A stretch of DNA of 33,715 nt, taken from NCBI GenBank assembly GCA_947089145.1, contig CAMUJH010000046.1, forward strand, positions 1-33,715, in the 5' to 3' direction. The stretch is from an uncultured Hungatella sp. Its GTDB lineage: Bacteria; Bacillota; Clostridia; Lachnospirales; Lachnospiraceae. Shown one piece after another: positions 357-15,126 of this stretch. The notes beneath the pieces are model-generated. The model was not told where the DNA came from. It searched no databases and saw only the letters and a list, made by a program, of their open reading frames with translations. Both the position numbers and the translations under genes were made by a program. Position 1 is the stretch's first letter. Every line of letters starts with the position of its first letter.

Positions 357-884
357 ATGTGGTGTGTGGTGCATGTGCGAAATGGCGGTGAAAAACATGC
401 GGAAGAATTTGTTTCGGGTCTTCTTCCAGAATGCGTTCATGCGAGATGCTTCCATTTGACCAGGGATAGAAGGAAAAAGTATGAAGGGAATTGGCAGACA
501 GTAAAGGAAGCTTTATTTCCGGGATACGTATTTATCGAAACGGATCAGCCGGACAGGGTGTACCAGGAGCTGAAGAAGACGCCGAAACCAAAGTTGCTGT
601 TCAGTGATGACGAATATGTGGCGGCATTGGCAAAACACGAAACGGATTTTATGGAGAGGATTGCGGACAGAGACGGAAGGGTTGGGATATCCAAGGTAAG
701 AATTGGAGAGGATGGGGAGATCCATTATGTGTCAGGCCCGCTATTGGGAATGGGGGACATGGTGAGGCGGGTAAATCTTCATAAACGGATTGCGGAGATA
801 GAGACAGAGGTTATGGGGGTAAAGAGGATTCTGTATCTGGGGATTGACATTGAAGCAGATGACAGGAGGAGTCAGGCATGTTGA
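357..884 (+). CDS. loaP: LoaP-type NusG paralogue (processive transcription antiterminator)
   Basis: This 175-residue protein is a specialised NusG that binds RNA polymerase and lets it read through terminators in one target operon. It starts MWCVVHVRNGGEK, typical of the NGN domain, and carries LFPGYVFIET near residues 53-62, the conserved core of that domain (about 1-105). A KOW-like segment follows (VSGPLLGMGDMVRRV, about 125-160). LoaP proteins usually head long polysaccharide or polyketide operons, and here the gene is first in a same-strand run of about 17.6 kb. AAAAGGAG (338-345) supports the ATG at 357. RfaH is a related alternative, but the Firmicutes-like context favours LoaP. Family membership is well supported; the target being this operon is inferred from position. 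Confidence 0.9.
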   Translation: MWCVVHVRNGGEKHAEEFVSGLLPECVHARCFHLTRDRRKKYEGNWQTVKEALFPGYVFIETDQPDRVYQELKKTPKPKLLFSDDEYVAALAKHETDFMERIADRDGRVGISKVRIGEDGEIHYVSGPLLGMGDMVRRVNLHKRIAEIETEVMGVKRILYLGIDIEADDRRSQAC

Positions 885-1058: not shown

Positions 1059-2411
1059 ATGGAAAAAAGAACAATCAATTTTAGTCCGCCGGACATCACA
1101 GAACTTGAAATATCAGAGGTAGCAAACGCTCTTCATTCCGGCTGGATTACAACAGGGCCCAGGACGAAGATGCTGGAGTGCCGCTTGGCGGCCTATATAG
1201 AAACCGGAAAGAATGACGTTGATTGTACTGACAGAGATGCGTTCGCAAAGTATAGTCAGCGTGTGGTTTGCTTGAATTCCGCTACGGCAGCGGAGGAACT
1301 TAATCTTCGTATTCTTGGTATTACTGCCGGTGACGAGGTTATTGTTCCAGCTTACACATACACGGCCTCCGCATCCGCTGCTATCCACTGCGGCGCCACA
1401 GTAAAGTTTGTGGATATTCAGAAGAACGGCGATAAAGATAGCCACGCTCCCGAGATGGATTACGATGCTCTGGAAGCAGCGATTACTCCGAAGACAAAGG
1501 CAATCATTGTGGTAGATCTCGGCGGCATTGTCTGCGATTATGATCGTGTGTTTGAGATTGTGGAGAGTAAACGTTCTCTTTTCACGCCTCTTGACGACTA
1601 CAGTGATCCGGTGGCTGGCTTGGGAAGCAGCCTACAACATTCTATTGGCCGTGTTGCAGTTATAGCTGACTGTGCCCACAGTCTCGGTGCGTCGAGAATC
1701 GTTTCTCACACAGGTGAAGGGGAGATTGAGAAGCAGAGACGGTACTGCGGCAGAATTGCAGATTTTACGTCATTTTCCTTCCATGCGGTAAAAAATTTCA
1801 CTACAGCAGAAGGAGGAGCCGCTGCATGGCTGCCAATAGATGGTGTGGATAGTAAGGAAATCTATAAGATGTATCAGCTTTTGTCTCTACATGGTCAGAA
1901 TAAGGATGCTTTGGCTAAGACAAAGATTGGTGCGTGGGAGTATGATATTGTAGGCCCTTGGTATAAGTGCAACATGACCGACATCATGGCGGCAATAGGG
2001 CTTTGTCAGCTTGACAGGTATCCGGGGCTTCTAGGTAGACGGGCAGAGATTATAAAAAGTTATGATAAGGCTTGTGATAACCTTGGAATCTTACACCTGG
2101 TCCATCACACTGACGTTATGGATAGCTCCAACCATCTGTATCTGATTCGCATGCCGGGAATTGATGCAGAGCAACGGAACGAGATTATTGAGAAGCTGGC
2201 TGAGAGGGGCATTGCCACAAATGTCCATTATAAGCCGCTGCCGATGATGACGGCATACAAAGATATGTGCGGCGGGATAGGAAATTTTCCTAATGCCTAT
2301 GATTATTACCATAATTTGATTACGCTCCCTCTGCACACGATGCTGTCAGATGAGGATGCAGAGTATGTGTGCCAGATGGTGAAGGAAGTTGTAAAGGAGT
2401 ATTTGAAATGA
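1059..2411 (+). CDS. DegT/DnrJ/EryC1/StrS family PLP-dependent sugar aminotransferase
   Basis: The family moves an amino group, usually from glutamate, onto a nucleotide-linked keto sugar in the cytoplasm, giving an amino sugar for glycan assembly. The product has 450 residues, longer than the usual 370-400. Visible marks are LNSATAAEELNLRILGITAGDEVIVPAYTYTA-type substrate and cofactor segments in the first third, ADCAHSLGA before the cofactor site, and the Schiff-base lysine K245 in SFSFHAVKNFTTAEGG. The extra length lies mostly between the VVDLGG strand and the ADCAHS motif (about residues 165-205). No sugar 4,6-dehydratase is in the window, so the keto-sugar precursor must come from elsewhere. 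An AGAGG site sits a short way upstream of the ATG, and the 3' end overlaps the next gene by ATGA. The exact sugar cannot be told. Confidence 0.9.
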   Translation: MEKRTINFSPPDITELEISEVANALHSGWITTGPRTKMLECRLAAYIETGKNDVDCTDRDAFAKYSQRVVCLNSATAAEELNLRILGITAGDEVIVPAYTYTASASAAIHCGATVKFVDIQKNGDKDSHAPEMDYDALEAAITPKTKAIIVVDLGGIVCDYDRVFEIVESKRSLFTPLDDYSDPVAGLGSSLQHSIGRVAVIADCAHSLGASRIVSHTGEGEIEKQRRYCGRIADFTSFSFHAVKNFTTAEGGAAAWLPIDGVDSKEIYKMYQLLSLHGQNKDALAKTKIGAWEYDIVGPWYKCNMTDIMAAIGLCQLDRYPGLLGRRAEIIKSYDKACDNLGILHLVHHTDVMDSSNHLYLIRMPGIDAEQRNEIIEKLAERGIATNVHYKPLPMMTAYKDMCGGIGNFPNAYDYYHNLITLPLHTMLSDEDAEYVCQMVKEVVKEYLK

Positions 2412-2980
2412 TGCCGTTTGATCACATCCGAGTGAGGTATTTTCTGCATTGTTTGCTGCATCGGAATGGCTATGAACATGGAGAATACCTAAAAAAACAT
2501 AACGCATTCCATGGTATGGGAGAGAACTGTTTCTTTCAGCCGTACAATCTCCCTGCAGATGCGAGGTACATAAGGCTGGGGAATAATGTAGTTGTTGCCT
2601 CTAATGTGAGTTTTATTTGTCATGATGTAATCCACAATATGCTGAATCATGCCCCAAAGTATGCGGGGGGGTATACAGCATACTGGGGAATTATTGATGT
2701 GAAAGATAATGTGTTCATAGGTTCAAATACAACGATTCTCTCAAATGTAACAATCGGCTCAAATGTAATCATAGCCGCAGGGAGTCTTGTCAATCAGGAT
2801 ATTCCTGATGGAAAGATCGTGGCTGGGGTTCCTGCGAAAGTGATTGGTGAAGTAGATGATCTCGCCCAAAAACGAAGATTACACAGTGAGAGTCCGATTG
2901 GCAAGATGGGGCGGGATGAGAGGATTAAGTATTTGTGGATGAATACAGGCATTTGCTGCTGTGTGCAAAAAGATGATTGA
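2408..2980 (+). CDS. Left-handed beta-helix (hexapeptide) acetyl/acyltransferase
   Basis: This 190-residue protein belongs to the hexapeptide-repeat acyltransferases, which move an acyl group from acyl-CoA to a sugar hydroxyl or amine. It has isoleucine/valine-rich hexapeptide rungs such as VFIGSNTTILSNVTIGSNV and the typical end VAGVPAKVIGE. The ICHDVIHNM segment holds histidines where the catalytic base is expected, but I cannot assign one. I chose ATG at 2408 because AAAGGAG (2393-2399) lies 8 nt before it and it forms an ATGA overlap with the aminotransferase stop; an upstream in-frame start at 2369 has no such support, and ATG at 2411 is also possible. With the upstream aminotransferase it could acetylate the new amino sugar, as PglD/NeuD-like partners do, but O-acetylation is equally possible. 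Confidence 0.85.
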   Translation: MMPFDHIRVRYFLHCLLHRNGYEHGEYLKKHNAFHGMGENCFFQPYNLPADARYIRLGNNVVVASNVSFICHDVIHNMLNHAPKYAGGYTAYWGIIDVKDNVFIGSNTTILSNVTIGSNVIIAAGSLVNQDIPDGKIVAGVPAKVIGEVDDLAQKRRLHSESPIGKMGRDERIKYLWMNTGICCCVQKDD

Positions 2981-3012: not shown

Positions 3013-4218
3013 ATGAACAGAGTGTTTATTACAGGTGCATGCCGAACCCCGATGGGCAAAATGGGCGGAGCTTTATCTTCGCTGTCAGCTGTAGAGTTAG
3101 GGGCTTTGGTTATCAGTGAGTCGCTGAGACGCAGCGGCATCCCAGCAGATACTGTTGATCATGTGTACATGGGCTGCGTGCTCCAGGCAGGTTTAGGTCA
3201 AAATGTGGCCAGGCAGGCGGCAATTAAAGCCGGACTTCCAGTGACTGCGACAGCGCAGACAGTCAATATCGTCTGTGGCTCCGGACTTGATTCCGTGAAT
3301 TCGGCTGCCCGGCTCATCCAATCCGGTGAAGCTGATATTGTGATTGCCGGCGGCATGGAATCCATGTCACAGGCTCCGTTTGCTTTGAAAGATGCCCGTT
3401 TTGGGTACCGGATGGGCAGCCCCATGATGGATACCCCGCTTGTAGATACCATGGTGAATGACGCATTATGGGATGCAATCAACAATTACCACATGGGGGT
3501 TACGGCGGAAAACATAGTGGAACAGTGGGGAATTACACGCCGGGAACTGGATGAGTTTGCGGTGGAATCCCAGAATAAGGCAGCAGATGCAGTTGAAAAT
3601 GGGAACTTTAAGGACGAGATTGTCCCTGTTGTTATTAAAAACCGTAAAGGAGAGACGGTGATAGACGCAGATGAAGGACCACGTCCCGGAACAACGTTTG
3701 AGGCTCTTTCTAAGCTGAAGCCTTCATTCAGGCAAGGCGGCACTGTAACCGCCGGGAATAGCTCTGGGATTAACGACGGTGCTGCTGCGGTTATCTTGAT
3801 ATCTGAGGATAAGGTTAAAAAACTGGAATTAATTCCGCAGGCTGAATGGATTGGCGGTGCGCTGGCCGGTGTTGAACCTGAGATTATGGGAAGCGGCCCG
3901 GTAGAAAGCACAAAAAAGCTGTTTAAGAGATTGGGCATGACGATGGATGACATTGACCTTGTGGAAGGCAACGAGGCCTTTGCGGCTCAGTCAATAGCAG
4001 TCAAGCGGGAGCTGAACATTCCGGATGAAAAGCTGAATGTGAATGGAGGGGCTATTGCCCTGGGCCATCCGGTGGGAGCTTCCGGCTGCCGTATTCTTGT
4101 GACTCTTATTCATGCAATGAAACAGAGGAATGCCGCCACAGGGCTGGCAACGCTTTGTATCGGAGGCGGCATGGGGTGCAGCACGGTAATCAAGAGCTAT
4201 AGTGAGGTAAATAGATGA
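3013..4218 (+). CDS. Thiolase (acetyl-CoA C-acetyltransferase type)
   Basis: The 401-residue protein matches the biosynthetic/degradative thiolases, which join two acetyl-CoA into acetoacetyl-CoA or run the reverse. All catalytic elements are present: nucleophile C88 in [11 protein letters not shown]352 in [14 protein letters not shown], and C382 in [19 protein letters not shown] is also there. The ATG at 3013 follows GGAG and begins with the family-typical [15 protein letters not shown]; a TTG at 2977 would add a poorly conserved N-terminus. A thiolase is unusual in a surface polysaccharide operon. It is joined by an ATGA overlap to a 3-hydroxyacyl-CoA dehydrogenase, so the pair should form 3-hydroxybutyryl-CoA for a sugar acyltransferase. 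A housekeeping role in butyrate metabolism is less likely given the location. Confidence 0.93.
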
Positions 4219-5054
4219 TGAGGATTGCAGTAATCGGTACCGGAACTTTAGGGCCATCCATCGCACAGGTGTTTTCTCAATGTGAGAAGGTTGAAAAGGT
4301 TTTTCTCTGTAAAGGCAGAGATTCATCTGAAAGTGACGGCAAGGAAAAGATAAAAACGGCATTTGACAAACTGACAGGAAAAGAAAAGATAACAAGAAAA
4401 GAAGCAAATCACTGCCTTTCAAAGATTTACACAGGAAATAAGGAACTTGCGGCTGACGCAGATCTGCTTATTGAAGCTGTTTCTGAAGATGCAGAGATTA
4501 AGAAATCCCTTTTCAAACAGTTAGATCAGATATGCAGGTCAGATTGCATTTTTGCTACAAATACATCCTCCCTTCCAATTCAGACCATTGGTGAGGGACT
4601 ATCTCGTCCGTTGATAGGTATGCATTTCTTCAACCCGGCGCCAGTGATGAAGCTGGTGGAAGTGATTGCCACTGAGAGAACACCGCACGACATGGTTGAT
4701 TTTGTTATGGAGATTGCCAGGGATATAGGAAAAACACCTGTGGAAGTGCGGGAAGCCCCTGGATTCATAGTGAACCGCATATTGATCCCGATGATCAATG
4801 AGGCGATCAGCATTTATGCGGAGGGCGTTGCGTCAGCAGAGGATATTGATACAGCCATGAAGCTGGGCGCAAATCATCCAATGGGGCCTCTGGCGTTGGG
4901 GGACCTGATCGGACTGGATGTAGTTCTGGCAATCCTGGGCGTCATGCTGAAAGAAACCGGGGACAATCGCTACCTTCCGCAGCCAATGCTGAAGAAAATG
5001 GTAAGAGAAAAGAAACTTGGCCGGAAGACCGGTGTGGGGTTTTATAAGTATTAA
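4215..5054 (+). CDS. 3-hydroxyacyl-CoA (3-hydroxybutyryl-CoA) dehydrogenase
   Basis: The enzyme reduces acetoacetyl-CoA to 3-hydroxybutyryl-CoA with NAD(P)H, or the reverse. Its 279 residues match single-domain HBD enzymes (about 280). The Rossmann motif GTGTLG is at residues 8-13, NTSSLPI follows, the catalytic histidine H137 is in GMHFFNPAPVMKLVE, and the C-terminal domain carries NHPMGPLALGDLIGLD. The ATG at 4215 overlaps the thiolase stop (ATGA), with GAGG a short way upstream; ATG at 4218 is possible. Next to a thiolase and directly before an LpxD-like acyltransferase, it most likely supplies 3-hydroxybutyryl-CoA as an acyl donor. Chain length cannot be read from sequence. Confidence 0.93.
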   Translation: MMRIAVIGTGTLGPSIAQVFSQCEKVEKVFLCKGRDSSESDGKEKIKTAFDKLTGKEKITRKEANHCLSKIYTGNKELAADADLLIEAVSEDAEIKKSLFKQLDQICRSDCIFATNTSSLPIQTIGEGLSRPLIGMHFFNPAPVMKLVEVIATERTPHDMVDFVMEIARDIGKTPVEVREAPGFIVNRILIPMINEAISIYAEGVASAEDIDTAMKLGANHPMGPLALGDLIGLDVVLAILGVMLKETGDNRYLPQPMLKKMVREKKLGRKTGVGFYKY

Positions 5055-5067
5055 GGAGAGGCATTTT

Positions 5068-5973
5068 GTGAAGATTACTGACATTCTTGAATTTTATAAA
5101 AGAACAAAAACAAAATATTCAGCTGACGGCAATGCCGACTTAGGAATAGAAGGATATTCCAGCATTTATCAGTACAAAGACGGCACTGTGTCATGGCTTC
5201 GCAAAATATCTACGCTGGATAACCCCAGATTCAAAATGCCTGGCACATTTACCTGCGTGATTACCCAGGATGGGATGCCACGCATACCTAATGCTAAGTG
5301 CCAGATTTGGGTCGGCAATCCGAAGGATGCTTTTTTCGATGCTCTTGAAGAATTCTGGGGAGAAAAAGCCGAGATATCAATTTCGTCACAAGCTGTCATC
5401 GAGGATGGCGCCATAATAGGGGATAATGTTTCTATCGGGCCATTTACTTATATTTCCTCCAAAACTGTTATAGGCGATGGTACCAGAATAGGTTCAAATG
5501 TGATGATTAAAGGCAAAGTCACAATAGGAAAAGACTGTGTCATTCAAAGCGGGGCGGTACTAGGCGAGGATGGCTTTGCATTCATCAAAGAAGATGATGC
5601 CCAAAAGTTTGTTAAGCATTACGGAGGCGTTACGCTTGAGGATCATGTTTCGATTGGCTCCCAAACCTGTGTCTGCAGGGGAGCAATAGAGGACACTCTG
5701 ATTAAAGAGTATGCGAAGATCGATAACCTCTGCCATATAGCCCACAATGTGGTGATCGGCAAACGGTCAATTGTGGTTTGCCTCACCGCCGTGATGGGGT
5801 CTGTGCATATTGGGGATGACTGCTGGGTAGCTACCAGCATGATCAGGGATCAGCGCCATGTTGGTGATGGCTGCGTTGTTGGCATGGGGGCTGTTGTCGT
5901 AAAGGATGTTCCCGATAAGGCTACAGTGGCGGGCAATCCTGCAAAGCCAATGGAGCGGAAGGAAAAGATATGA
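5068..5973 (+). CDS. LpxD-like hexapeptide N-acyltransferase
   Basis: This 301-residue protein resembles LpxD, which in Gram-negatives N-acylates UDP-glucosamine with a 3-hydroxyacyl chain from ACP. A non-repeat N-terminal domain (about 1-100) precedes a left-handed beta-helix. It keeps the LpxD-like stretch GEDGFAF and the block YAKIDNLCHIAHNVVIG, in which H226 aligns by eye with the LpxD catalytic histidine of QIAHNV. The C-terminus ends VAGNPAKPMERKEK, like sugar acyltransferases. I place the start at GTG 5068 because AAGGAGAG (5053-5060) lies 7 nt upstream; the in-frame ATG at 5017 lies inside the previous gene. The host seems Gram-positive, so lipid A synthesis is unlikely. With the two upstream CoA enzymes, the best guess is transfer of 3-hydroxybutyrate to an amino sugar. 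Confidence 0.85.
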   Translation: MKITDILEFYKRTKTKYSADGNADLGIEGYSSIYQYKDGTVSWLRKISTLDNPRFKMPGTFTCVITQDGMPRIPNAKCQIWVGNPKDAFFDALEEFWGEKAEISISSQAVIEDGAIIGDNVSIGPFTYISSKTVIGDGTRIGSNVMIKGKVTIGKDCVIQSGAVLGEDGFAFIKEDDAQKFVKHYGGVTLEDHVSIGSQTCVCRGAIEDTLIKEYAKIDNLCHIAHNVVIGKRSIVVCLTAVMGSVHIGDDCWVATSMIRDQRHVGDGCVVGMGAVVVKDVPDKATVAGNPAKPMERKEKI

Positions 5974-6632
5974 GCAAGGTACTTGTAATTGCAGCGCATC
6001 CGGATGATGAACTGCTTGGCTGCGGCGGAGCTTTGATTCGGCATGCAGACCAGGGAGATGAAGTCCAGAGCATTATTATGTGTGAAGGTGAATCCCTTCG
6101 ATATGCAGGACAGGAAGTCCATCAACATGAGGCCACAGCCGAGGCGGCGGAGATTATCGGCATATCCAAGACGAACCGCTTTGATTTCCCGGATCAGAAG
6201 CTGGATAAGTTTTCACTGGTGGAGCTGATTACCCCGATTGAAAAAGTGGTAGATGGCTTTAGGCCTGACATAGTATACATCCAGTTTGGCGGGGATATTA
6301 ACCGGGATCACGCACTGACCTTTGAGGCCGCAAACATTGCTCTTAGGCCTACGGCTGATTCTGTCAGGGAGATTTATACGTTTTATACGGTAGGAAGCAC
6401 GGAACTTAAGACTCCTGGCGAGTTTAATCCGAATGTATGGGTTGATATAGAAGATCAGGTTGAAAGAAAAATTCAGGCTTTTTCATGTTATACAAGCGAG
6501 ATCAGGGAGTATCCGCATCCCCGATCGTTGGAAGGCATCAGGAATGTGGCGGCTTTCTATGGCAATCAGTGCTGCCTCAGATATGCGGAAGCGTTCATGT
6601 TAATGAGGAAGATTGCGAGGAAGCAGCCATGA
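5970..6632 (+). CDS. PIG-L family deacetylase (LmbE-like)
   Basis: PIG-L proteins are zinc-dependent N-deacetylases that act on GlcNAc-type groups linked to lipids, inositol or nucleotides. The zinc motif AHPDDE is at residues 9-14, and a second ligand is likely H114 in GDINRDHALTF. The length (220) is normal, and no signal peptide is seen, so it should act in the cytoplasm. The ATG overlaps the acyltransferase stop. In this operon it could free an amine by removing an acetyl group so that a 3-hydroxyacyl or amino-acid group can be attached; the order of steps is inference. Confidence 0.9.
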   Translation: MSKVLVIAAHPDDELLGCGGALIRHADQGDEVQSIIMCEGESLRYAGQEVHQHEATAEAAEIIGISKTNRFDFPDQKLDKFSLVELITPIEKVVDGFRPDIVYIQFGGDINRDHALTFEAANIALRPTADSVREIYTFYTVGSTELKTPGEFNPNVWVDIEDQVERKIQAFSCYTSEIREYPHPRSLEGIRNVAAFYGNQCCLRYAEAFMLMRKIARKQP

Positions 6633-7819
6633 AACGATTGATGGTTATGGGAGCTGCTATAGAGCAGGTTCCGGGAATTAAAAAAGCCAAAGAGATGGGA
6701 TATGAGGTAGCTGTTATTGACTATAACCCTAAGGCGGTGGGGATTGGGCTTGCTGATAAATTCTATAATGTAAGCACCATTGACCCGGAGGGGGTTTTTC
6801 GGGCTGCCCAGGATTTTAAGGCAGACGGATTTTTGACTCTTGCTACCGATCTTCCCATGCGTGCAGTTGCTTACGCAAGTGAAAAATTAGGTATTTTGGG
6901 AGTTTCCCAGCATACTGCACTGCTGGCAACTGATAAAGGTGAGATGATAAAGGCGCTGAAGGAGCATGCTGTTGAATCTCCCTGGTATTACATCATTGAT
7001 ACGCTGGATGATCTGAGGGAGACGGGAAAGCAGCTCACATACCCCTGCATTATGAAGCCTGCAGATAACGCTGCAAGCCGCGGAGTGGCATTAATACACG
7101 ATTATGAAGGGCTGATTGAAAGCTACGGCTACTCCAAAGATGAGTCTCACAGCGGGCAGGTAATTATTGAAGAATATATGGAAGGGCCAGAGGTTAGTGT
7201 TGAAGTCTTGAGCTATAAAGGGGAAGCTTATGTTCTTCAGATCACAGACAAATTGACCTCTGGTGCGCCACATTTTGTGGAAGTCGGCCACAACCAGCCA
7301 TCGCAGCTGGATAAGGAGACAAAGGAGAAGATCTGTGATGTCGCAGGCAGGGCGGTGCAGGCCCTTGGGATCGAGAATGGACCTGCTCATGTTGAGATCA
7401 TCGTAACAACAGATGGGCCGAAGATTGTAGAGCTTGGCGCACGGCTGGGCGGAGATTGCATCACGTCCCATCTGGTATATCTTTCCACAGGCATTGACAT
7501 GGTAAAAGAGACGGTTAAGGTTCTCTGCGGTGAAAAGCCGGATTTAGTGCAGAAATATGAAAAAGGCGCATCCATCCGTTTTCTTACGGGTGAAACGTTA
7601 GGTATTTTTGATCATGTGGATGGTGAAGATGACGCGCGGGCAGTTGACGGGGTAATTGAAGTATCAGACATCATGCACACGGGCGATCTGATTGAGTCCA
7701 TCCGCAGCAGTGATGACCGTGTGGCTTATGTTGTCGCACAGGCGGAGAATGTTCAGGCATCGTCAGCGATAGCAGAGAAAGCCCGGAATATGATGACAGT
7801 TGTGGTGAGAAAGGGGTAA
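6629..7819 (+). CDS. ATP-grasp carboxylate-amine ligase, first copy
   Basis: This 396-residue protein has the three-part ATP-grasp layout: a Rossmann-like N-terminus (MVMGAAIEQVPGIKKAKEMGY), a nucleotide-binding lid with CIMKPADNAASRGVAL near residues 145-160, and the catalytic end with VEIIVTTDGPKIVELGARLGGD, where the acidic and arginine residues bind Mg-ATP. Such enzymes activate a carboxylate as an acyl phosphate and couple it to an amine. ATG 6629 overlaps the PIG-L stop as ATGA; the longer in-frame start at 6485 lies deep in that gene and is rejected. The substrate may be an amino sugar joined to an amino acid or other acid, but this cannot be read from the sequence. Confidence 0.87.
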   Translation: MKRLMVMGAAIEQVPGIKKAKEMGYEVAVIDYNPKAVGIGLADKFYNVSTIDPEGVFRAAQDFKADGFLTLATDLPMRAVAYASEKLGILGVSQHTALLATDKGEMIKALKEHAVESPWYYIIDTLDDLRETGKQLTYPCIMKPADNAASRGVALIHDYEGLIESYGYSKDESHSGQVIIEEYMEGPEVSVEVLSYKGEAYVLQITDKLTSGAPHFVEVGHNQPSQLDKETKEKICDVAGRAVQALGIENGPAHVEIIVTTDGPKIVELGARLGGDCITSHLVYLSTGIDMVKETVKVLCGEKPDLVQKYEKGASIRFLTGETLGIFDHVDGEDDARAVDGVIEVSDIMHTGDLIESIRSSDDRVAYVVAQAENVQASSAIAEKARNMMTVVVRKG

Positions 7820-7826
7820 GGGACAG

Positions 7827-8591
7827 TTGTATCAGAATTATGTAAAGCGGATTTTGGATATTTTCATCAGTCTGATTGCTCTGCCGTTCTTTCTCATTAG
7901 CTTTATATTTATTGCGCCTGCAATTTATCTGAATGACCGCGGCACGATATTTTACAGGGCAGAGCGCCGTGGAATCCATGGGACAATCTTTGAAATGTAT
8001 AAGTATCGTTCCATGAAGATGAATGCGCCAGATCTGAGAAACGCAGACAATTCGACGTTTAACAGCTGGGATGACCCAAGGGTTACGAAGGTCGGCCGCT
8101 TCCTCAGAAAGACTTCAATGGATGAAATCCCGCAGATCTTAAATGTCCTTAAAGGCGACATGAGCATTATAGGGCCAAGACCTATTACGATCAATAAACC
8201 GCTTGAAGAATACGATGAGAAGAGAACAATTCGCCTTCAGGTAAAACCTGGAGTGACAGGATCGGTTCAGGCATATTACAGAAATTCCATAGGGCAGGAA
8301 GAGAAACTGCAGCATGATGCAGAATATGCGCAGAATGTAACATTCCTTGGGGATGTGAAAATAATGCTGAAAACAATCCAGACAGTCCTACAGCGAAAGA
8401 ATATTTATATCAAGCAGGAAAATGTTAAGGATGTCCATGAGGTAAACCTGCATGCGCCCGGCAGCGGAAGCACCGCCGCACATGAAAGCCCGGCGGGCGC
8501 ACTTGGCATTCCAGAATGCATGCCGCCTAATGGGCGGCGGACTTTTATAGCAATAAAAATCCCACATAAAAAAGGAGATTCAAAAAAATGA
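7827..8591 (+). CDS. Priming sugar-phosphate transferase (bacterial sugar transferase, PglC/WbaP type)
   Basis: It moves a sugar-1-phosphate from a nucleotide sugar to undecaprenyl phosphate, the first membrane step of repeat-unit assembly. Only one N-terminal membrane segment is present (about residues 8-32), as in the small PglC-like class. Conserved blocks are YRAERRG, FEMYKYRSM, DDPRVTKVGRFLRKTSMDEIPQ and GDMSIIGPRP. The start is TTG 7827, preceded by AAGGGGTAAGG. About 40 C-terminal residues after NIYIKQENVKDVHEVN are rich in Gly, Ala, Pro and Ser and do not look conserved. They span a GC hairpin (8522-8536), so the gene may have been extended at its end. Confidence 0.92.
   Translation: MYQNYVKRILDIFISLIALPFFLISFIFIAPAIYLNDRGTIFYRAERRGIHGTIFEMYKYRSMKMNAPDLRNADNSTFNSWDDPRVTKVGRFLRKTSMDEIPQILNVLKGDMSIIGPRPITINKPLEEYDEKRTIRLQVKPGVTGSVQAYYRNSIGQEEKLQHDAEYAQNVTFLGDVKIMLKTIQTVLQRKNIYIKQENVKDVHEVNLHAPGSGSTAAHESPAGALGIPECMPPNGRRTFIAIKIPHKKGDSKK
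8522..8536 (+). other. GC-rich stem-loop near the end of the priming transferase gene
   Basis: CCGCC and GGCGG can pair around a five-base loop, in a GC-rich patch unlike the surrounding coding sequence. A CTTTTAT stretch follows, so it may act as a weak pause or terminator inside the operon, of the kind LoaP could override. The stem is short. Confidence 0.3.
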
Positions 8592-9814
8592 ACGTCAAAG
8601 GAAAACGGTTACTCATTGTTGGCGCCGGCCGTGGCCAGGTTGGTCTTTATAAGGCAGCAAAGGAAATGGGGATTCATACAATTGCAGGCACTATGCCGGA
8701 TAACAACCCTCCCGGAATTAAGCTGGCTGACGAAGTCTGCTATATGAATATCGCAAAGCCCGATGAGGTGCTGGAAAAGGCAAAGACGCTGAACATTGAT
8801 GGACTTGCAACAAGCTGCCTTGATACAGGTGTCCCGGCAATCGGTAAGGTGTGCGATGCCCTTGGCCTGACCGGGCTTACGGAGAATGCCGCTGTTATGT
8901 GCGGCGACAAGCTTAAGATGAAGAAAGCGTTCATGGAACATGGAGTCAGCACGGCTCAGTTTGTGGAAATCCACACCCAGGATGAACTGGAGGCTGCACT
9001 GGAGACGCTGAAGCTGCCGGTTATTATCAAAGCGACAGATCTCCAGGGCAGCAATGGTATTTACATTGCAGAGACTCATGAGGCAGCTGTTGAAGGCTTC
9101 CACGGAGCAATGGATAAGACCCGTCGGGACTACTGCATCGTCGAACAGTACATAGAGGGGTATGAGTTTGGCGCACAGGCATTTGTGTATCAGGGAGAGG
9201 TTCTATTCGTAATGCCTCATGGTGATGAAACTTATATGAGCCATACTGCTGTTCCCGTCGGCCACTATGTACCGTTTGAGGGTGATGAGAATATCCATAA
9301 TCAGGCAGAGGAAGCCGTAAAGAGAGCGATTAAGGCACTTGGACTGAATAACTGCGCAGTCAATGTCGACCTGATTCTGAAGGATGACACGGTGTATGTG
9401 ATCGAGCTTACGGGACGGGTTGGTGCAAACTGCCTGCCGGAGCTCACCCAGATCAATTTTGGCATTGAGTATTACAAAATGATTGCAGCAATGGCCTTGG
9501 GGGAGAATCCGTTGGAGCTGTGGGAACGGCGCAGGGACAAGACTTTGGCCGGATATGCGAAGATGATCCTGGAAACGGAGAAATCCGGGGAATTGGAGAG
9601 CATCGAATATAAGGGAAAGGTTGAAGGCGAAGTACTCGAGGTGACATTCTTTAAACATCCCGGTGACGAGATCCGTATTTTCGGGAATTCCAATGACTGC
9701 GTCGGCCAGATTATTGTACAGGGCGACACAATAAATGCCTGCAAGAAGACCCTGCAGGGTGTTCTGGATCAGATTGAGATGAAATTGAAAAGGGAAAAAC
9801 CTATTGCCCTTTGA
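8588..9814 (+). CDS. ATP-grasp carboxylate-amine ligase, second copy
   Basis: A 408-residue ATP-grasp protein related to, but clearly different from, the one at 6629. It starts with a Rossmann-like RLLIVGAGRGQVGLYKAAKE, has the ATP-binding lid LPVIIKATDLQGSNGIYIA (about 145-165), and the catalytic block AVNVDLILKDDTVYVIELTGRVGANCLPEL (about 258-287) with the Mg-binding glutamate and arginine. GGAG precedes the ATG, which overlaps the previous stop. The final 100 residues resemble the C-terminal domain of carboxylate-amine ligases. It probably forms an amide or peptide bond during repeat-unit modification. Whether both ligases act in series or on different acids is unknown. Confidence 0.87.
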   Translation: MNVKGKRLLIVGAGRGQVGLYKAAKEMGIHTIAGTMPDNNPPGIKLADEVCYMNIAKPDEVLEKAKTLNIDGLATSCLDTGVPAIGKVCDALGLTGLTENAAVMCGDKLKMKKAFMEHGVSTAQFVEIHTQDELEAALETLKLPVIIKATDLQGSNGIYIAETHEAAVEGFHGAMDKTRRDYCIVEQYIEGYEFGAQAFVYQGEVLFVMPHGDETYMSHTAVPVGHYVPFEGDENIHNQAEEAVKRAIKALGLNNCAVNVDLILKDDTVYVIELTGRVGANCLPELTQINFGIEYYKMIAAMALGENPLELWERRRDKTLAGYAKMILETEKSGELESIEYKGKVEGEVLEVTFFKHPGDEIRIFGNSNDCVGQIIVQGDTINACKKTLQGVLDQIEMKLKREKPIAL

Positions 9815-9823
9815 GGTACGGCG

Positions 9824-11068
9824 ATGGTGAAAAAATTGCTGGTTTTGGCCAATGAGTTTCCCTACGGAGCCTGGGAGCCTTATATGGAGACAGAGGAGGG
9901 GTATTATTCTGCGTTTGATAAAGTGTGGATCGCCTCACTTCAGCTGAGGAAAGAGCATGCCAAAACAAAAAGAGAGCTGAAAAGCGATGCGGCAGTCATT
10001 CCCGTTCCATACATGTCCAGACTGTTTTATTTTGCTAACAGTTTTTCTGTGCTTGGAGACAGAGAGCTTTATAGGGAAATTTCGGAGCTAAAAAAAAGCG
10101 GACGTTTGTCCTTGGCACGCATTGTTGATCTCTTTGTCTTTCTGAGCAGAGCCCACCATGAGGCCCGAGTGATTGATCGTGCATTAAGAGATGAGGATAA
10201 GGACAATCTGCTGCTTTATTCATATCGCTTTGAGTTTCAACCGTATATTGCGGTTTTGCTGAAGAAAAAATGGAGGAAATCACCGTATATTGTGTCCCGC
10301 GCCCATGGGTATGACATTTATGAGGGACAGCATGCAAATGACTACATTCCGCTCAGGAAAGTTATTCTGGATAACATTGATTATGTCTTTCCATGTTCAG
10401 AGCACGGCGCTAGATATATAGAGGAAAAATACGGCGACGTTAAGGCTAATGTGGAGTGCAGATATCTGGGGACGGTTGATCACAGAGAGCGGTTGGCTCC
10501 CTCTGGAATGAATCCTTTGAAAATCGTGTCCTGCTCAAATGTGGTTAAAGTTAAACGGTTGGAGAAAATTGTAAATGCCCTGTCCTTGATGGATGATGTC
10601 GAGATAGAATGGACACATTATGGGGATGGACCATTGCTGGCGGAAGTGAGGCGGATGGCGGCAGAAAAGCTTGGGAAAAACATAAGAGCTAATTTTCCAG
10701 GCAGTGTTGCCAACACAGAACTGCTAAAGATCTACGGTTCAACTGACTGCCATATCTTTTTAAACGTCAGTTTATCAGAAGGTTTGCCAGTATCTATTAT
10801 GGAGGCCATGTCCTTTGGCATTCCCTGCATTGCTACCGATGTAGGCGGAACAAGAGAGCTTGTAAATGATGAAAACGGGTATTTGCTGGAGGCGGATGCC
10901 GATGACGCAAAGATAGCTGATGCTGTACGCTGCGTTTCTCAGATGGGCATAGATGAGTATCAGGCGTTGAGAGAAGGAGCGCGTAAATCATGGAACAACA
11001 AATTCAATGCAGAGATAAACTATTCAGAATTTCTTGAATTATTAAGCGGGCTTTTAACAGGAATGTAA
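9824..11068 (+). CDS. Glycosyltransferase family 4 protein
   Basis: The 414-residue product has a GT-B fold of the GT4 type. The C-terminal donor-binding half shows KIVSCSNVVKVKRLEKIVNAL, HYGDGP and the signature EGLPVSIMEAMSFGIPC followed by GGTRELV, which includes the conserved E-x7-E pair. The N-terminal acceptor half starts LLVLANEFPYG. It should add one sugar to the undecaprenyl-linked acceptor on the inner membrane face. It starts 9 bp after the preceding gene. Donor and linkage are not predictable. Confidence 0.9.
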   Translation: MVKKLLVLANEFPYGAWEPYMETEEGYYSAFDKVWIASLQLRKEHAKTKRELKSDAAVIPVPYMSRLFYFANSFSVLGDRELYREISELKKSGRLSLARIVDLFVFLSRAHHEARVIDRALRDEDKDNLLLYSYRFEFQPYIAVLLKKKWRKSPYIVSRAHGYDIYEGQHANDYIPLRKVILDNIDYVFPCSEHGARYIEEKYGDVKANVECRYLGTVDHRERLAPSGMNPLKIVSCSNVVKVKRLEKIVNALSLMDDVEIEWTHYGDGPLLAEVRRMAAEKLGKNIRANFPGSVANTELLKIYGSTDCHIFLNVSLSEGLPVSIMEAMSFGIPCIATDVGGTRELVNDENGYLLEADADDAKIADAVRCVSQMGIDEYQALREGARKSWNNKFNAEINYSEFLELLSGLLTGM

Positions 11069-11116: not shown

Positions 11117-12541
11117 ATGAGAGTAAGATTAACCAAGATGAATATCTTTGGAGCGATTGTTATATTAGTTCTGTTGATAGCTGGTCTTATTTTAGGAGCG
11201 AATCCTTTGTATTGTCTTGCTCTAATAGCGAACTTGCTTCTCCTTCTGTATTCATACGACAGGATAGAAAATAGAAGCTTGCTGTTCACCTTTGGGGTAG
11301 CATATTTTACTTTTCTGCTGGGAAGAGAATTTTTAGAAGTTTATTTTCAGTACAGGATAGAAAATTACAGTGCAAATATCAACAATCATACGTATTTATG
11401 CCTGATTTTGGGAACTCTTGGGGTATGGATTACATATGCAGTATTTGAACGCAGATCAAATAATAGGAAAATAGAAAGCAAACAAAACTCAATTGTTTTG
11501 GATGACCCATTGGGAATCAGGGTGAGAAAGATAAGCAAGTGGCTGTTTTTTGCATCCATGCCATTCGGATTAATCACGAGATTCGCAATAGCATGGTTTG
11601 TGCGAAGGGCCAGTTACACAGAGTATTATATTGACTTTGTTAACGTCTTATATGGCGGGAACGCTGTTCTGTACATTGTCGGCAGACTTGAGAATGTTAT
11701 GCCGGTTGCATTAGGGATTTTTTTCTCGACACTTCCGTCTAAAAGAGAATCAAAGCCAGTTATGCTGACGTATTTTTTATATTGCGTTATCTCCTTGGGT
11801 GCAGGCAACAGAGGCACTTTTGTTCTTGGCGTATTGTATTTGTTTGTTTTTATAGTGCATATGCAGGGGAAAAGACCAGAGGAACAATGGTTTGAAAAAA
11901 AGATGATGATCTATGCCATAATCTTAATTCCTATTATTGCAGTTGCTGGCTCTCTATATAATCTAATGCGCTTAAATATGGAGACTGCGGGTATCTCCTT
12001 GCTTGACGCTTTCATAAATTTCTTTTATGACCAGGGAGTTACAATCACTGTAATAAAACATGGATATGAACTTGAGGATATGATACCGAAGCAAGGTCCG
12101 TATTTGCTTGAGTTCCTTCATTCAGGAACTCTGGCAAGATTATTAGGCATTCCTGTGTATCATGGCAACACAGTAGAACATGCTTTATATGGCGGCAGTT
12201 TTACGCATTCGCTAGCCTATACAGTTATGATGTCAGGTTATTTAGCTGGCAGAGGAACAGGGACATCTTATATAGCTGAATTGTATTACGATTTAGGATA
12301 TCCAGGCGTGTTTTTTGGAAGCGCTGTATATGGCTGGCTTTTTAGCAAAATACAGAATAGCAGGGCAAACAAGTTATTTGTAAGATCATTGATATTTGTT
12401 TTGGTTACGCAATTTCTATGGGCGCCCAGGGGCAGTTATACCGCATTTATTTCCTTTCTGTCTGCACCAACCACTATTGCGTCATACATCCTGATATGGG
12501 GATTGGCAAAACTCATTCAGTCAAAGTATAGAAACAGCTGA
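11117..12541 (+). CDS. Wzy-type polysaccharide polymerase (multi-spanning membrane protein)
   Basis: This 474-residue protein has about ten or more hydrophobic segments, beginning with IFGAIVILVLLIAGLIL, and a large loop in the second half. It carries GAGNRGTFVLG and GTGTSYIAELYYDLGYPGVF, features of O-antigen/capsule polymerases. Such proteins join exported repeat units on the outer face of the membrane. GGGGAGAG (11102-11109) precedes ATG 11117. The gene is more AT-rich than those upstream, which is usual for serotype-specific polymerases and suggests exchange. Polymerase function follows from topology and its place beside a flippase rather than from a catalytic motif. Confidence 0.82.
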   Translation: MRVRLTKMNIFGAIVILVLLIAGLILGANPLYCLALIANLLLLLYSYDRIENRSLLFTFGVAYFTFLLGREFLEVYFQYRIENYSANINNHTYLCLILGTLGVWITYAVFERRSNNRKIESKQNSIVLDDPLGIRVRKISKWLFFASMPFGLITRFAIAWFVRRASYTEYYIDFVNVLYGGNAVLYIVGRLENVMPVALGIFFSTLPSKRESKPVMLTYFLYCVISLGAGNRGTFVLGVLYLFVFIVHMQGKRPEEQWFEKKMMIYAIILIPIIAVAGSLYNLMRLNMETAGISLLDAFINFFYDQGVTITVIKHGYELEDMIPKQGPYLLEFLHSGTLARLLGIPVYHGNTVEHALYGGSFTHSLAYTVMMSGYLAGRGTGTSYIAELYYDLGYPGVFFGSAVYGWLFSKIQNSRANKLFVRSLIFVLVTQFLWAPRGSYTAFISFLSAPTTIASYILIWGLAKLIQSKYRNS

Positions 12542-12554
12542 GGAGGGAATGGCA

Positions 12555-13550
12555 GTGTACAAGATTGTTTTTTCGATTCCGGTACATGAGTCACCAGAGT
12601 CAGTAATAGATCAAATCGTAAACTACAACACTTTTAACGATAATTGTGCAATTGTTTTGCACATGAGCAAGACGTTTTCATATAAAGACAGCTCCTATAC
12701 AGAAGATTCTTTCATGTCGGCTCTTGACAGTTTTGGGAATGTATTTATTAATCCTAATCATTTAAGGACGGGATATGCGGACATTATCCAAACGCATATG
12801 TCGAATTTTCAACATGCCTGCAATGTAACTGATTTTGAGTATTTCTCTATTGGAGCCAGTAACGACTTGTTTGTAAGAAAAGGGCTCTATGAATTTATAT
12901 CGGACTATGATGCTGGCTTTAGCAGGAAGCACAAGTATACTGATAAAGAGTGGATGTGGAATCCTCAACTGACCACAGATCACGTTATTGACAGTCTCCT
13001 TGAGAAGTATCAGACGATCCCAGCGAATGTGATTATTTGCCAAATAGAAGGCTGCTTTTACAAGAAGGATCTGTTTTCAAAAATAATTGATGATATAAAC
13101 GAGTTCTATGACTTTGAAGATTACGATTTCAAAGGAAAAGACAGGGACAAGGTATATCCAAGAGAGGAAGTATATTTTAGCACGGTTGCGGAAATAATGT
13201 CGAAGTCATATAAAATCTACTATGACAGTTATGCCTATGTGGCGTTTGAGATTCGCATTTCACACATTCCGCTTGTGTCATCTATCAGGAAATATGCGGC
13301 TAAAGATAGTCATATTTTTAACGTTAAACGGTTTAACAGAAAATTGAATGACCCATTCCGGGCTTACGTCAGAGATAACATAGGGCATTACTATGACCAG
13401 GTCAGACAGTACAATCCGGGGACGAAGAAATGTAATTATATCCACCTGTATGCATGGAACGCATGTGTTTATCTTAATAATACGGCTATTGCATATACAA
13501 TGAGACGGGCAGGGCGGAAAATACTAAGACTCGATAAAAAAGGAAGATGA
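12555..13550 (+). CDS. Putative glycosyltransferase, possibly GT14-like
   Basis: A 331-residue soluble protein. The N-terminus KIVFSIPVHESPESVIDQI and the later NPNHLRTGYADIIQTHMSNF recall core-2/I-branching-type (GT14-like) glycosyltransferases, but I see no decisive catalytic motif. FSIGASNDLFVRKG could be the acceptor or donor pocket. I prefer the GTG start at 12555 because GAGGAGG lies 8 nt upstream; the ATG at 12549 is only 2 nt from that site. It sits between polymerase and flippase genes, where serotype-specific transferases are common. A polysaccharide-modifying enzyme of another type is the main alternative. Confidence 0.6.
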   Translation: MYKIVFSIPVHESPESVIDQIVNYNTFNDNCAIVLHMSKTFSYKDSSYTEDSFMSALDSFGNVFINPNHLRTGYADIIQTHMSNFQHACNVTDFEYFSIGASNDLFVRKGLYEFISDYDAGFSRKHKYTDKEWMWNPQLTTDHVIDSLLEKYQTIPANVIICQIEGCFYKKDLFSKIIDDINEFYDFEDYDFKGKDRDKVYPREEVYFSTVAEIMSKSYKIYYDSYAYVAFEIRISHIPLVSSIRKYAAKDSHIFNVKRFNRKLNDPFRAYVRDNIGHYYDQVRQYNPGTKKCNYIHLYAWNACVYLNNTAIAYTMRRAGRKILRLDKKGR

Positions 13551-13552
13551 GA

Positions 13553-15001
13553 ATGTCAAAAGCTAACGCACCATCTTTACAGAAGAATGCCGTTATGAGC
13601 GGCTTGAATATGGGACTGTCTCTTATTTTTCCGCTTATTACACTTCCATATGTTTCACGCGTCCTTGGAGTAGAAAATATCGGGAAATATAATTTCTCTA
13701 ATAACTTTGTCAGTTATTTCATCCTGATCGCCACATTGGGCGTGAATACATATGGTATTAGAGAGTGTGCTAAGGTCAGGGAAGACAGCGATAAAGCCAG
13801 CGCTTTTGTAAGCCAGATATTTTCAATCAATATGGTGACAACATTCGCATCCTATCTTCTTCTGTTCGCCATTCTATTTGGCTTTGAGTCCTTTGCTTCA
13901 TACAGAGGATGCGTCCTGATCTTCAGCAGTACTCTGTTATTTACCGGACTGGGTGTTGAGTGGGTTTATAAGGCATATGAGCAGTTCACATATATTACTG
14001 TAAGAAATGCGGTTTTTAAGTTAGCTGCATTAGGCCTGCTGTTTATACTTGTACACGATGAAGGAGACTATTTAAAATATGCGGCGGTGACAGTATTTGC
14101 AACCTGCGGGTCTTCTTTATTAAACTTCATACACAGTAGAAAGTTTTGCAGGATTCGAATTACCCGGCATATAGACTGGTCTGTCCACATGAGGCCGTTG
14201 ATTATTTTGTCGGCGTCGGCAATTGCCGTTCACATTTACAACAGTTCTGATACGCTCATGTTGGGACTGATAACAAATGAATACTATGTGGGACTTTATG
14301 CAATATCTTCTAAAATCTATTTGATGGCGAAGAGCATTCTATTGGCTTTGTTATCAGTTGCGATTCCGCGACTGTCGATCATGATTTCTGATAGGAAGCG
14401 ATTTGGAGTACTTGTTGGCAAGATAGCAGACGTGATGAACTTTTTTGCGCTGCCTCTGGTAATCGGAATTTTCCTTATTTCGGATGAAATCGTATGTATT
14501 CTTGCCGGACAGGATTATTTAGGTGCATCCCCATCACTTAAAATTCTCAGCATTGCCATTATATGCAGCATGTACGCCTGGATTTCCAGCGAATGCGTCT
14601 TGATTCCCGCAGGGAGGGAAAAAGAATCATTTATTAGCACGGGAATTGCGGCCTGTATTAATATAGGGCTCAATTTCGTGCTTATACCGCTGTGGAATGT
14701 CAATGCTGCTGCTGTCACGACGGTCATTGCTGAAGGTTTTGTGATGGTGTTCTGTACTTTGAAAACCAAAGGTATAGTTAATGTAAAATTCTTTCATAAA
14801 GAAACCGGGAAGGCACTGATGGGATGCATAGGTATAGGAGTGGTGTGCGTCCTTTCAAAATATTACATAAGTAATCTGTTTATTAGAACTGGTGTAGCAG
14901 TGATTGGATCGGGTTTTGCCTATGCAGTTATTTGTTTTAGCTTAAAGAATAAGATGGCACTGATGATAAAAAATAAAGCACTTGTGATGTTTAGAAGATG
15001 A
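13553..15001 (+). CDS. Wzx-type oligosaccharide flippase
   Basis: The 482-residue product has roughly 12-14 membrane segments and the family-typical N-terminus: LQKNAVMSGLNMGLSLIFPL, then ITLPYVSRVLGVENIGKYNFS. Polysaccharide flippases of the MOP superfamily move undecaprenyl-linked repeat units across the membrane. ATG 13553 is chosen since AAGGAAG (13540-13546) sits directly against the alternative ATG 13547 and 6-7 nt from this one. With the Wzy-type polymerase it defines a Wzx/Wzy-dependent pathway. No Wzz/Wzc-type chain-length regulator is in the window. Confidence 0.9.
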   Translation: MSKANAPSLQKNAVMSGLNMGLSLIFPLITLPYVSRVLGVENIGKYNFSNNFVSYFILIATLGVNTYGIRECAKVREDSDKASAFVSQIFSINMVTTFASYLLLFAILFGFESFASYRGCVLIFSSTLLFTGLGVEWVYKAYEQFTYITVRNAVFKLAALGLLFILVHDEGDYLKYAAVTVFATCGSSLLNFIHSRKFCRIRITRHIDWSVHMRPLIILSASAIAVHIYNSSDTLMLGLITNEYYVGLYAISSKIYLMAKSILLALLSVAIPRLSIMISDRKRFGVLVGKIADVMNFFALPLVIGIFLISDEIVCILAGQDYLGASPSLKILSIAIICSMYAWISSECVLIPAGREKESFISTGIAACINIGLNFVLIPLWNVNAAAVTTVIAEGFVMVFCTLKTKGIVNVKFFHKETGKALMGCIGIGVVCVLSKYYISNLFIRTGVAVIGSGFAYAVICFSLKNKMALMIKNKALVMFRR

Positions 15002-15093: not shown

Positions 15094-15126
15094 TGATTTC
15101 AGATAAATATTGTGGAGGATTTGCAC

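Follow-up and report, generated by a model that had tools for sequence, protein, structure and literature searches.

Genomic evidence for a probable operon-borne 3-hydroxybutyryl-CoA supply beside an LpxD-like acyltransferase in a surface-glycan locus of an uncultured Hungatella sp.

In lipid A synthesis, the LpxC-LpxD step pairs a deacetylase with an N-acyltransferase carrying a 3-hydroxyacyl group. Here we compare with this and other described systems a row of genes encoding a thiolase, a 3-hydroxybutyryl-coenzyme A (CoA) dehydrogenase (HBD), an LpxD-like acyltransferase, and a PIG-L deacetylase in the window, a 33,715-nucleotide stretch of DNA from an uncultured Hungatella sp. of the Lachnospiraceae (assembly GCA_947089145.1, contig CAMUJH010000046.1, positions 1 to 33,715), which is contig C46 of a source genome of 4.46 Mb in 127 contigs with an estimated completeness of 87%. 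In Pseudomonas syringae pv. tabaci, the viosamine island comprises vioA, vioM, vioT, vioS, vioB, vioR, and acp. It has been proposed that the 3-hydroxybutyryl group of modified viosamine is synthesised and transferred by the products of vioS (3-oxoacyl-acyl carrier protein (ACP) synthase III, KASIII), vioR (reductase), acp, and vioB, and a vioR deletion mutant is described as being without that sugar (PMC3927599). Capsules of Acinetobacter baumannii are described with QuiNAc4N(S-3-hydroxybutanoyl), Leg5Ac7(R-3-hydroxybutanoyl), and Pse5Ac7(R-3-hydroxybutanoyl) (PMC9676051, PMC3726653, PMC3628348), and the anthrose of Bacillus anthracis BclA with a 3-hydroxy-3-methylbutamido group on a 4-amino-4,6-dideoxy sugar (PMC6222408). 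For the locus studied here, an earlier, sequence-only reading of the window had proposed that the operon brings its own supply of 3-hydroxybutyryl-CoA, next to an LpxD-type acyltransferase; this is well supported on genomic grounds, namely gene content, catalytic motifs, a predicted LpxD fold, gene order in a second species, and the absence of a match to the two usual onward enzymes of the CoA ester.

All four genes have intact, full-length reading frames that follow one another on the + strand, with catalytic motifs present, and sit in a LoaP/Wzx/Wzy-type surface-sugar locus; reading frames, profiles, and motifs confirm that they stand complete and in a row, with overlapping or short junctions, as that reading had it. 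The biosynthetic thiolase (3013..4218, +) starts with ATG, matches TIGR01930 (E = 1.2e-143; 478.7 bits, above the cut-off of 240.55), has the catalytic Cys/His/Cys with motifs that include CIGGGMG, and aligns over almost its whole length with 4n44, a solved acetyl-CoA acetyltransferase (E = 4.5e-145). Its gene overlaps by 4 bp with that of HBD (4215..5054, +), which we assigned by PRK05808, by its 3HCDH domains (PF02737, E = 4.1e-50, and PF00725, E = 4.3e-36, both over cut-off), and by the motifs HFFNP and NTSS. We note that this HBD and its two orthologs have LCKGR at the position of LCDIK in the solved relative 9w15, a difference suggesting that the cofactor is probably NADPH. No separate KASIII, FabG, or ACP gene was found among the scanned genes of the window; the thiolase has a weak ketoacyl-synthase match.

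After a gap of 13 bp follows the gene of the LpxD-like acyltransferase (5068..5973, +), with a GTG start and a ribosome-binding site, aggagag, at 5054-5060. Profile scores, alignment, and predicted structure assign to its product, which ends at residue 301, a two-domain LpxD fold without the C-terminal tail. The conserved LpxD His context claimed earlier held up, in that His226 (His227 in alignment numbering) falls in the alignment column where LpxD 3eh0 has His and the 4ihf chain has Ala. Tree and column counts cover 32 of the 40 glycan loci described below (L090, L091, L166, and L172-L176 left out) and, as "others," the first 45 of 60 eligible rows, a mixed set, some archaeal, that was not sorted by adjoining lipid A genes. 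The catalytic His (E. coli 239) is kept in 32/32 glycan-locus rows and 45/45 others, whereas the second conserved LpxD His, absent here, is kept in 1/32 versus 33/45. The C-terminal helical tail of LpxD binds ACP; the residues beyond A292 number 1-23 in the 32 glycan-locus rows versus 4-52 (three below 16) in the 45 others, and the short-tail group includes L170, L171, and L180, which adjoin ACP-like genes. The glycan-locus proteins form a separate branch in the tree of these rows (SH-aLRT 92). The studied protein scores below the LpxD cut-offs (TIGR01853, 198.4 versus 242.5 bits; PRK00892, 205.4 versus 207), and the LpxD N-terminal domain PF04613 found no match in it and matched 1 of 31 members (E = 0.0087). 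On the tree branch, the column differences, the lack of PF04613, and these scores, a plain lipid A LpxD was rejected. The anthrose operon includes the acyltransferase AntD, which was not named among the matches listed (best 60 of 83 in the LpxD alignment search; best 50 in each structure search).

We consider the following scheme, taken as a whole, to be likely. The thiolase would convert two acetyl-CoA to acetoacetyl-CoA, which HBD would reduce to (S)-3-hydroxybutyryl-CoA, and the LpxD-like enzyme would transfer the 3-hydroxybutyryl group from CoA, its putative donor, to an amino group on a UDP-linked sugar; this amine would come from PIG-L deacetylation of an N-acetyl group, from a DegT aminotransferase encoded upstream, or from both. 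The initiating transferase (Bac_transf) would then load the sugar on undecaprenyl phosphate, and Wzx and Wzy would export and polymerise the glycan. The scheme would parallel the LpxC-LpxD step, but in capsule synthesis and with a short acyl chain fed from CoA. We infer the substrates, the stereochemistry, the position of the acyl group, and the order of deacetylation from the genes.

The gene of the PIG-L/LmbE-family N-deacetylase (5970..6632, +) shares an ATGA with the LpxD-like gene on one side and with an ATP-grasp gene on the other; its product matches PF02585 (E = 9.8e-22; 78.3 bits, over cut-off), with the metal motif HPDDE and NRDH, and its PDB relatives include diacetylchitobiose and bacillithiol-pathway deacetylases. 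A role as the bacillithiol deacetylase BshB1 was rejected (TIGR04001, 77.0 bits versus a cut-off of 182.5). Neighbourhoods were counted over 40 loci, 39 of them distinct (L092 and L161, with an identical protein, counted once; L046 and L047 left out); 12 of the 80 loci of a wider search entered these counts, 11 clostridial-labelled and L070 ("Bacterium D16-56"). PIG-L occurs no more than 5 kb from the LpxD-like gene in 21/39 distinct loci, in all of these within about 3 kb, and a Wbp-type pair (nucleotide-sugar dehydrogenase plus Gfo/Idh) in 7/39, the two never together at this distance (Fisher p = 0.002; loci non-independent); at 8 or 10 kb, L083 has both the pair and a PIG-L-like gene that is only 27% identical (p = 0.015; loci again non-independent). 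Wbp-type loci create the amine by transamination and therefore would not need a deacetylase, and the near-exclusion thus fits deacetylation as the amine source. Further, PIG-L is present in 7/7 distinct loci carrying a thiolase or SCP2-thiolase. These patterns agree with the part of the earlier proposal in which PIG-L strips an N-acetyl group that the new acyl group later replaces, but the idea is only indirectly supported, and we infer both the amine that receives the acyl group and the substrate of PIG-L.

The alternative is that PIG-L serves an unrelated step, for example on an undecaprenyl-linked sugar, and that the LpxD-like enzyme acylates only the DegT amine, as in A. baumannii QuiNAc4N(3-hydroxybutanoyl). 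Locus L186, on contig C1 of the same genome, pairs PIG-L with Bac_transf and has no LpxD-like gene in the 19 kb inspected, the DegT aminotransferase would itself supply an amine, and the A. baumannii QuiNAc4NHb module (qhbCB/gdr) is described as dehydratase, aminotransferase, and acyltransferase, with no deacetylase named in the module (PMC9676051, PMC3628348). Set against the closeness of PIG-L to the LpxD-like gene, its separation from the Wbp pair inside 5 kb, and its presence at every thiolase or SCP2-thiolase cassette, we regard this alternative as quite possible, although we lean away from it.

A different acyl group on the same architecture, such as acetoacetyl, 2-methyl-3-hydroxybutyryl, or a longer 3-hydroxyacyl, seems unlikely. 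Thiolases and HBDs can accept other chains, the sister locus on contig C20 has an SCP2-type thiolase, and the acyl pocket is known from a ligand-free model. However, the nearest solved relatives of the thiolase are acetyl-CoA acetyltransferases (4n44, 8jg3, and 4dd5), the best of the NCBIfam models for HBD is PRK05808 (E = 8e-100, but with 333.7 bits below the cut-off of 408), and position 253 of the transferase (E. coli M266, aligned by hand) is aromatic (F, Y, or W) in 29/32 glycan-locus rows versus 10/45 others, which could shorten the pocket. Formation of an ester (O-3-hydroxybutyryl) in place of the amide is an improbable outcome, as the predicted acyltransferase structure (best pLDDT 94.7) fits LpxD across both domains, LpxD, which is N-acylating, is the only one of the best 50 listed to match the full two-domain chain, and amine-generating enzymes flank the gene.

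The supply of 3-hydroxybutyryl-CoA for N-acylation also finds support in related genomes. A second species of the genus, G321 (locus L162), keeps the order thiolase-HBD-LpxD-PIG-L-ATP-grasp-sugar transferase, after which the loci diverge; the co-occurrence of the four families in polysaccharide loci, suggested earlier as a check, is thus seen in the same order. The six gene pairs differ at silent sites with pS of 0.75-0.84 (near saturation) and at replacement sites with pN of 0.085-0.22, the thiolase being compared over 251 residues only, and each gene therefore looks to be under purifying selection. The gene-order search scored five candidates per genome, and its count of 15/392 is a lower bound. 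We also note that the six kept genes of L162 are followed, at 2-2590, by a NeuD/PglD-like gene, a small ACP-like open reading frame (ORF), a short-chain dehydrogenase/reductase (SDR), and an AMP-ligase-like ORF (assigned by eye, the SDR excepted), so that this one operon may contain a further acyl system.

Across 26 genomes of the genus, four thiolases were found at E <= 1e-80, in three genomes, and 4/4 lie within glycan loci; this canonical count excludes weak matches on C8 and C20 (E above 1e-5), the latter being the SCP2-type gene. All three thiolase genomes are among the six with an LpxD-like match at E <= 1e-25, as against 0/20 of the others (Fisher p = 0.008, kinship uncorrected). HBD matches at E <= 1e-10 fall inside glycan loci in 5/6 cases, the sixth (G303, 34% identity) lying outside. 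Bac_transf gave 136 matches in the 26 genomes; three of them, each also next to an LpxD-like gene, are no more than 10 kb from such a thiolase (by eye). The source genome (87% complete) gave no match to the crotonase family PF00378 or the acyl-CoA dehydrogenase family PF00441, MaoC-type hydratases not having been searched genome-wide, and a role in butyrate formation or beta-oxidation is therefore unlikely. It is very improbable that thiolase and HBD work in butyrate or fatty-acid metabolism and stand in the glycan locus by chance, since, although these families usually serve such pathways in Clostridia and the family matches alone would fit, the two onward enzymes found no match, translational coupling links both genes to that of the acyltransferase, their order is kept in the second species, and all the genus thiolases counted lie in glycan loci. 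A butyrate or beta-oxidation operon was rejected on the first of these grounds, and a fortuitous insertion on the last two together with the mostly glycan-borne HBDs.

Several points weigh against the reading of the locus as a supply and N-acylation module. The module is known here from genes and a predicted fold, and 4/5 structure models of the acyltransferase scored 64-74. HBD makes the S form, whereas lipid A LpxD takes (R)-3-hydroxyacyl groups. L162 is cut by the contig end inside the thiolase, which is thus partial, and the genes upstream fall outside the contig. The absence of an exit route is not absolute, given the completeness of the genome and the scope of the hydratase search. Also, 21/39 distinct loci show no supply cassette with the reference set used. 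Finally, the polysaccharide region of Vibrio cholerae NRT36S has an HBD-annotated ORF, with two capsule amino sugars assigned as N-acetyl and no thiolase in the main text (PMC1847822). An HBD gene alone is therefore no proof of the product.

Two further LpxD-like loci occur in the source genome, on contigs C51 (L035) and C20 (L036). L035 has the order LoaP, LoaP, LegC-like aminotransferase, thiolase, LpxD-like, SDR, sugar transferase, and PIG-L; compared with the studied locus, its thiolase is 71% and its LpxD-like protein 34% identical, and the SDR is of the FabG/acetoacetyl-CoA-reductase type. Enzymes of the HBD family yield (S)-3-hydroxybutyryl-CoA and PhaB-type SDRs the R form. An SDR replacing HBD beside a closely related thiolase is expected if the function is conversion of acetoacetyl-CoA to 3-hydroxybutyryl-CoA, and the C46 and C51 loci may supply mirror-image (S versus R) acyl groups. 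L036 has the order LoaP, LoaP, LegC-like aminotransferase, a distant HBD (PRK05808, E = 2.3e-36), an SCP2-type thiolase (PRK06289, E = 2.2e-169, over cut-off), LpxD-like, sugar transferase, and PIG-L. In its thiolase, the first Cys and the GHP His are present, the second Cys of the C46 enzyme is missing, and HDCF replaces NEAF, which is the SCP2-thiolase pattern. Both sister loci start with two LoaP-like genes, one conserved and one divergent, where the studied locus has one. The C51 layout was found again in L069 and the C20 layout in L161 (= L092) and L107.

In another congener, G304 (L179), a thiolase (75%) and an HBD (73%) stand between two NeuD/VioB-type acyltransferases (TIGR03570, over cut-off) and NeuB/NeuC, both over cut-off, with a LegC-family aminotransferase nearby that scores just below cut-off; judged by these genes, L179 is a nonulosonic acid locus. 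No LpxD-like gene adjoins, the nearest being ~20 kb off on the same contig. The five thiolases of these loci share 68-75% identity and span two LpxD-like lineages between which identity is only 32-34%, which implies that the thiolase moved between lineages or that the transferases were swapped.

In 15/39 distinct loci, at least one thiolase, SCP2-thiolase, HBD, MaoC, FkbH, or VOC gene stands no farther than 5 kb from the LpxD-like gene, and the number is also 15 at 10 kb. Three more loci (L170, L171, and L180) carry ACP/AMP-ligase-type sets, two of them with KASIII (L170 by models, L171 by eye). Near the LpxD-like gene of L170 (1972-7373) and of L171, we observed KASIII, a FabD-like gene, two small ACP-like ORFs, an SDR, and an AMP-ligase; in L170, KASIII, the ligase, and FabD were assigned by model matches and the small ORFs by eye. 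These sets look as if each locus had its own small acyl-ACP pathway. Placed on the tree, the cassette labels need 14 changes, against a minimum of 9 and a mean of 30.7 for shuffled labels (32 rows and 45 others), and cassettes therefore partly follow lineage and are partly exchanged. More widely, Clostridia of the gut group might decorate their surface sugars through an exchangeable N-acyl "writing" system, in which an LpxD-fold transferase, often with PIG-L, works with interchangeable cassettes (thiolase plus HBD for S, thiolase plus SDR for R, SCP2-thiolase plus HBD, MaoC, FkbH/VOC, or KASIII/ACP) and one genome writes several, even mirror-image, hydroxyacyls, as a Gram-positive, short-chain, CoA-fed counterpart of the deacetylate-and-reacylate step of lipid A; we consider the case for this wider picture to be evenly balanced.

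The rest of the locus, all on the + strand, begins with a LoaP-like antiterminator (357..884; NF033641, E = 5.2e-35, 121.0 bits, just below the cut-off of 125). Upstream of it, the 14-mer GGGGAAAAACCTAT forms a perfect inverted repeat at 17-30/29-42 and recurs at 204-217, with a fourth copy at 9791 carrying one mismatch (4 matches with <= 2 mismatches versus 0.19 expected in the window); the repeats are possibly leader hairpins. Rfam gave no matches on the window, L035, and L036. The DegT-family sugar aminotransferase (1059..2411; PF01041, E = 5e-75) is PseC-like (TIGR03588, 247.4 bits, under the cut-off of 423.5), and its product is likely a 4-amino-4,6-dideoxy UDP-sugar. In L186, LoaP, a PIG-L 75% identical to that of L041, and a sugar transferase are accompanied by a long dehydratase of the CapD/PglF type (646-aa frame), which could feed a keto-sugar to the DegT enzyme in trans. 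A short hexapeptide acetyltransferase (2408..2980; O- or N-acetyl; PF00132, E = 6.1e-11 on frame 2369-2980) follows, its ATG at 2408 overlapping the DegT stop.

Downstream of PIG-L lie an ATP-grasp ligase with a LAL_C2 domain (6629..7819; PF13535, E = 3.6e-24; PF18603, E = 1.3e-14; L162 ortholog 74% identical), the initiating phosphoglycosyl transferase Bac_transf (7827..8591; PF02397, E = 2e-58), a second ATP-grasp ligase (8588..9814; PF13535, E = 1.3e-13), a group 1 glycosyltransferase (9824..11068; PF00534, E = 9.8e-22), and a Wzy-type polymerase (11117..12541; PF14296, E = 2.8e-88). Between the latter and the Wzx-type flippase (13547..15001; PF01943, E = 8.6e-24) is a 333-aa protein without a known family, possibly a glycosyltransferase (12549..13550; neither Pfam nor NCBIfam matched at E 0.001), which has weak BLAST similarity to an ORF of L043 (24.6% over 122 aa, E = 4e-6). 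An APH-like protein (15112..16764; weak match to NF033068, E = 6.5e-5, 22.5 bits versus a cut-off of 205) and a nucleotidyltransferase with an N-terminal HAD-like part (16764..17996; PF12804, E = 5.4e-5, below cut-off; HAD part by eye) come next. Farther downstream, beyond the glycan locus, two ankyrin-repeat proteins are encoded at 19487-21556 (-) and 21940-22923 (+).

Thiolase and HBD, usually read as fermentation genes, are apparently capsule genes here, which matters for automatic metabolic annotation, and an LpxD-fold acyltransferase is placed in Gram-positive glycan assembly. From the module, one would expect the capsules of Lachnospiraceae-type bacteria to carry sugars with 3-hydroxybutyryl amides whose stereochemistry is defined and differs, and the genes give markers by which to recognise them. 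The statement of the sequence-only reading that no Gram-positive operon with this full set had been described was not contradicted, since no such locus was found in the open-licence PMC literature among the papers listed, but the concept itself is known from the Gram-negative viosamine island.

That island likewise is a glycan locus with its own 3-hydroxybutyryl supply (3-oxoacyl-ACP synthase III, 3-oxoacyl-ACP reductase, and ACP), an aminotransferase, and an acyltransferase, its sugar being given as Qui4N(3-hydroxy-1-oxobutyl)2Me (PMC3927599). As in the island, the supply genes studied here adjoin an aminotransferase and a sugar acyltransferase, the DegT, hexapeptide acetyltransferase, thiolase, HBD, and LpxD-like genes being consecutive. 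The island differs in that it is described for a Gram-negative flagellin glycan, with ACP chemistry, VioB, a dTDP sugar, and no deacetylase among the seven genes named (PMC3927599), whereas our locus, from a Lachnospiraceae relative, has thiolase and HBD acting on CoA, an LpxD fold, PIG-L, and a Wzx/Wzy-type setting. The A. baumannii K loci share 3-hydroxybutanoyl amides on 4-amino and nonulosonic capsule sugars; the main texts of PMC9676051, PMC3726653, and PMC3628348 name no thiolase, the first two do not contain "3-hydroxyacyl," and the passages on these modules describe no dedicated supply. Anthrose shares a hydroxyacyl amide on a Gram-positive glycan and differs in the acyl group and in belonging to a spore glycoprotein (PMC6222408). 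With LpxD of lipid A, the acyltransferase has in common the two-domain fold and the catalytic His; unlike in LpxC-LpxD, PIG-L replaces LpxC, the tail is short, the second His is absent, the supply is a short acyl-CoA, the protein falls on a separate branch, and the setting is a glycan locus. Overall, we conclude that the concept is known from Gram-negative bacteria and that the CoA-fed variant with an LpxD-like enzyme looks new.

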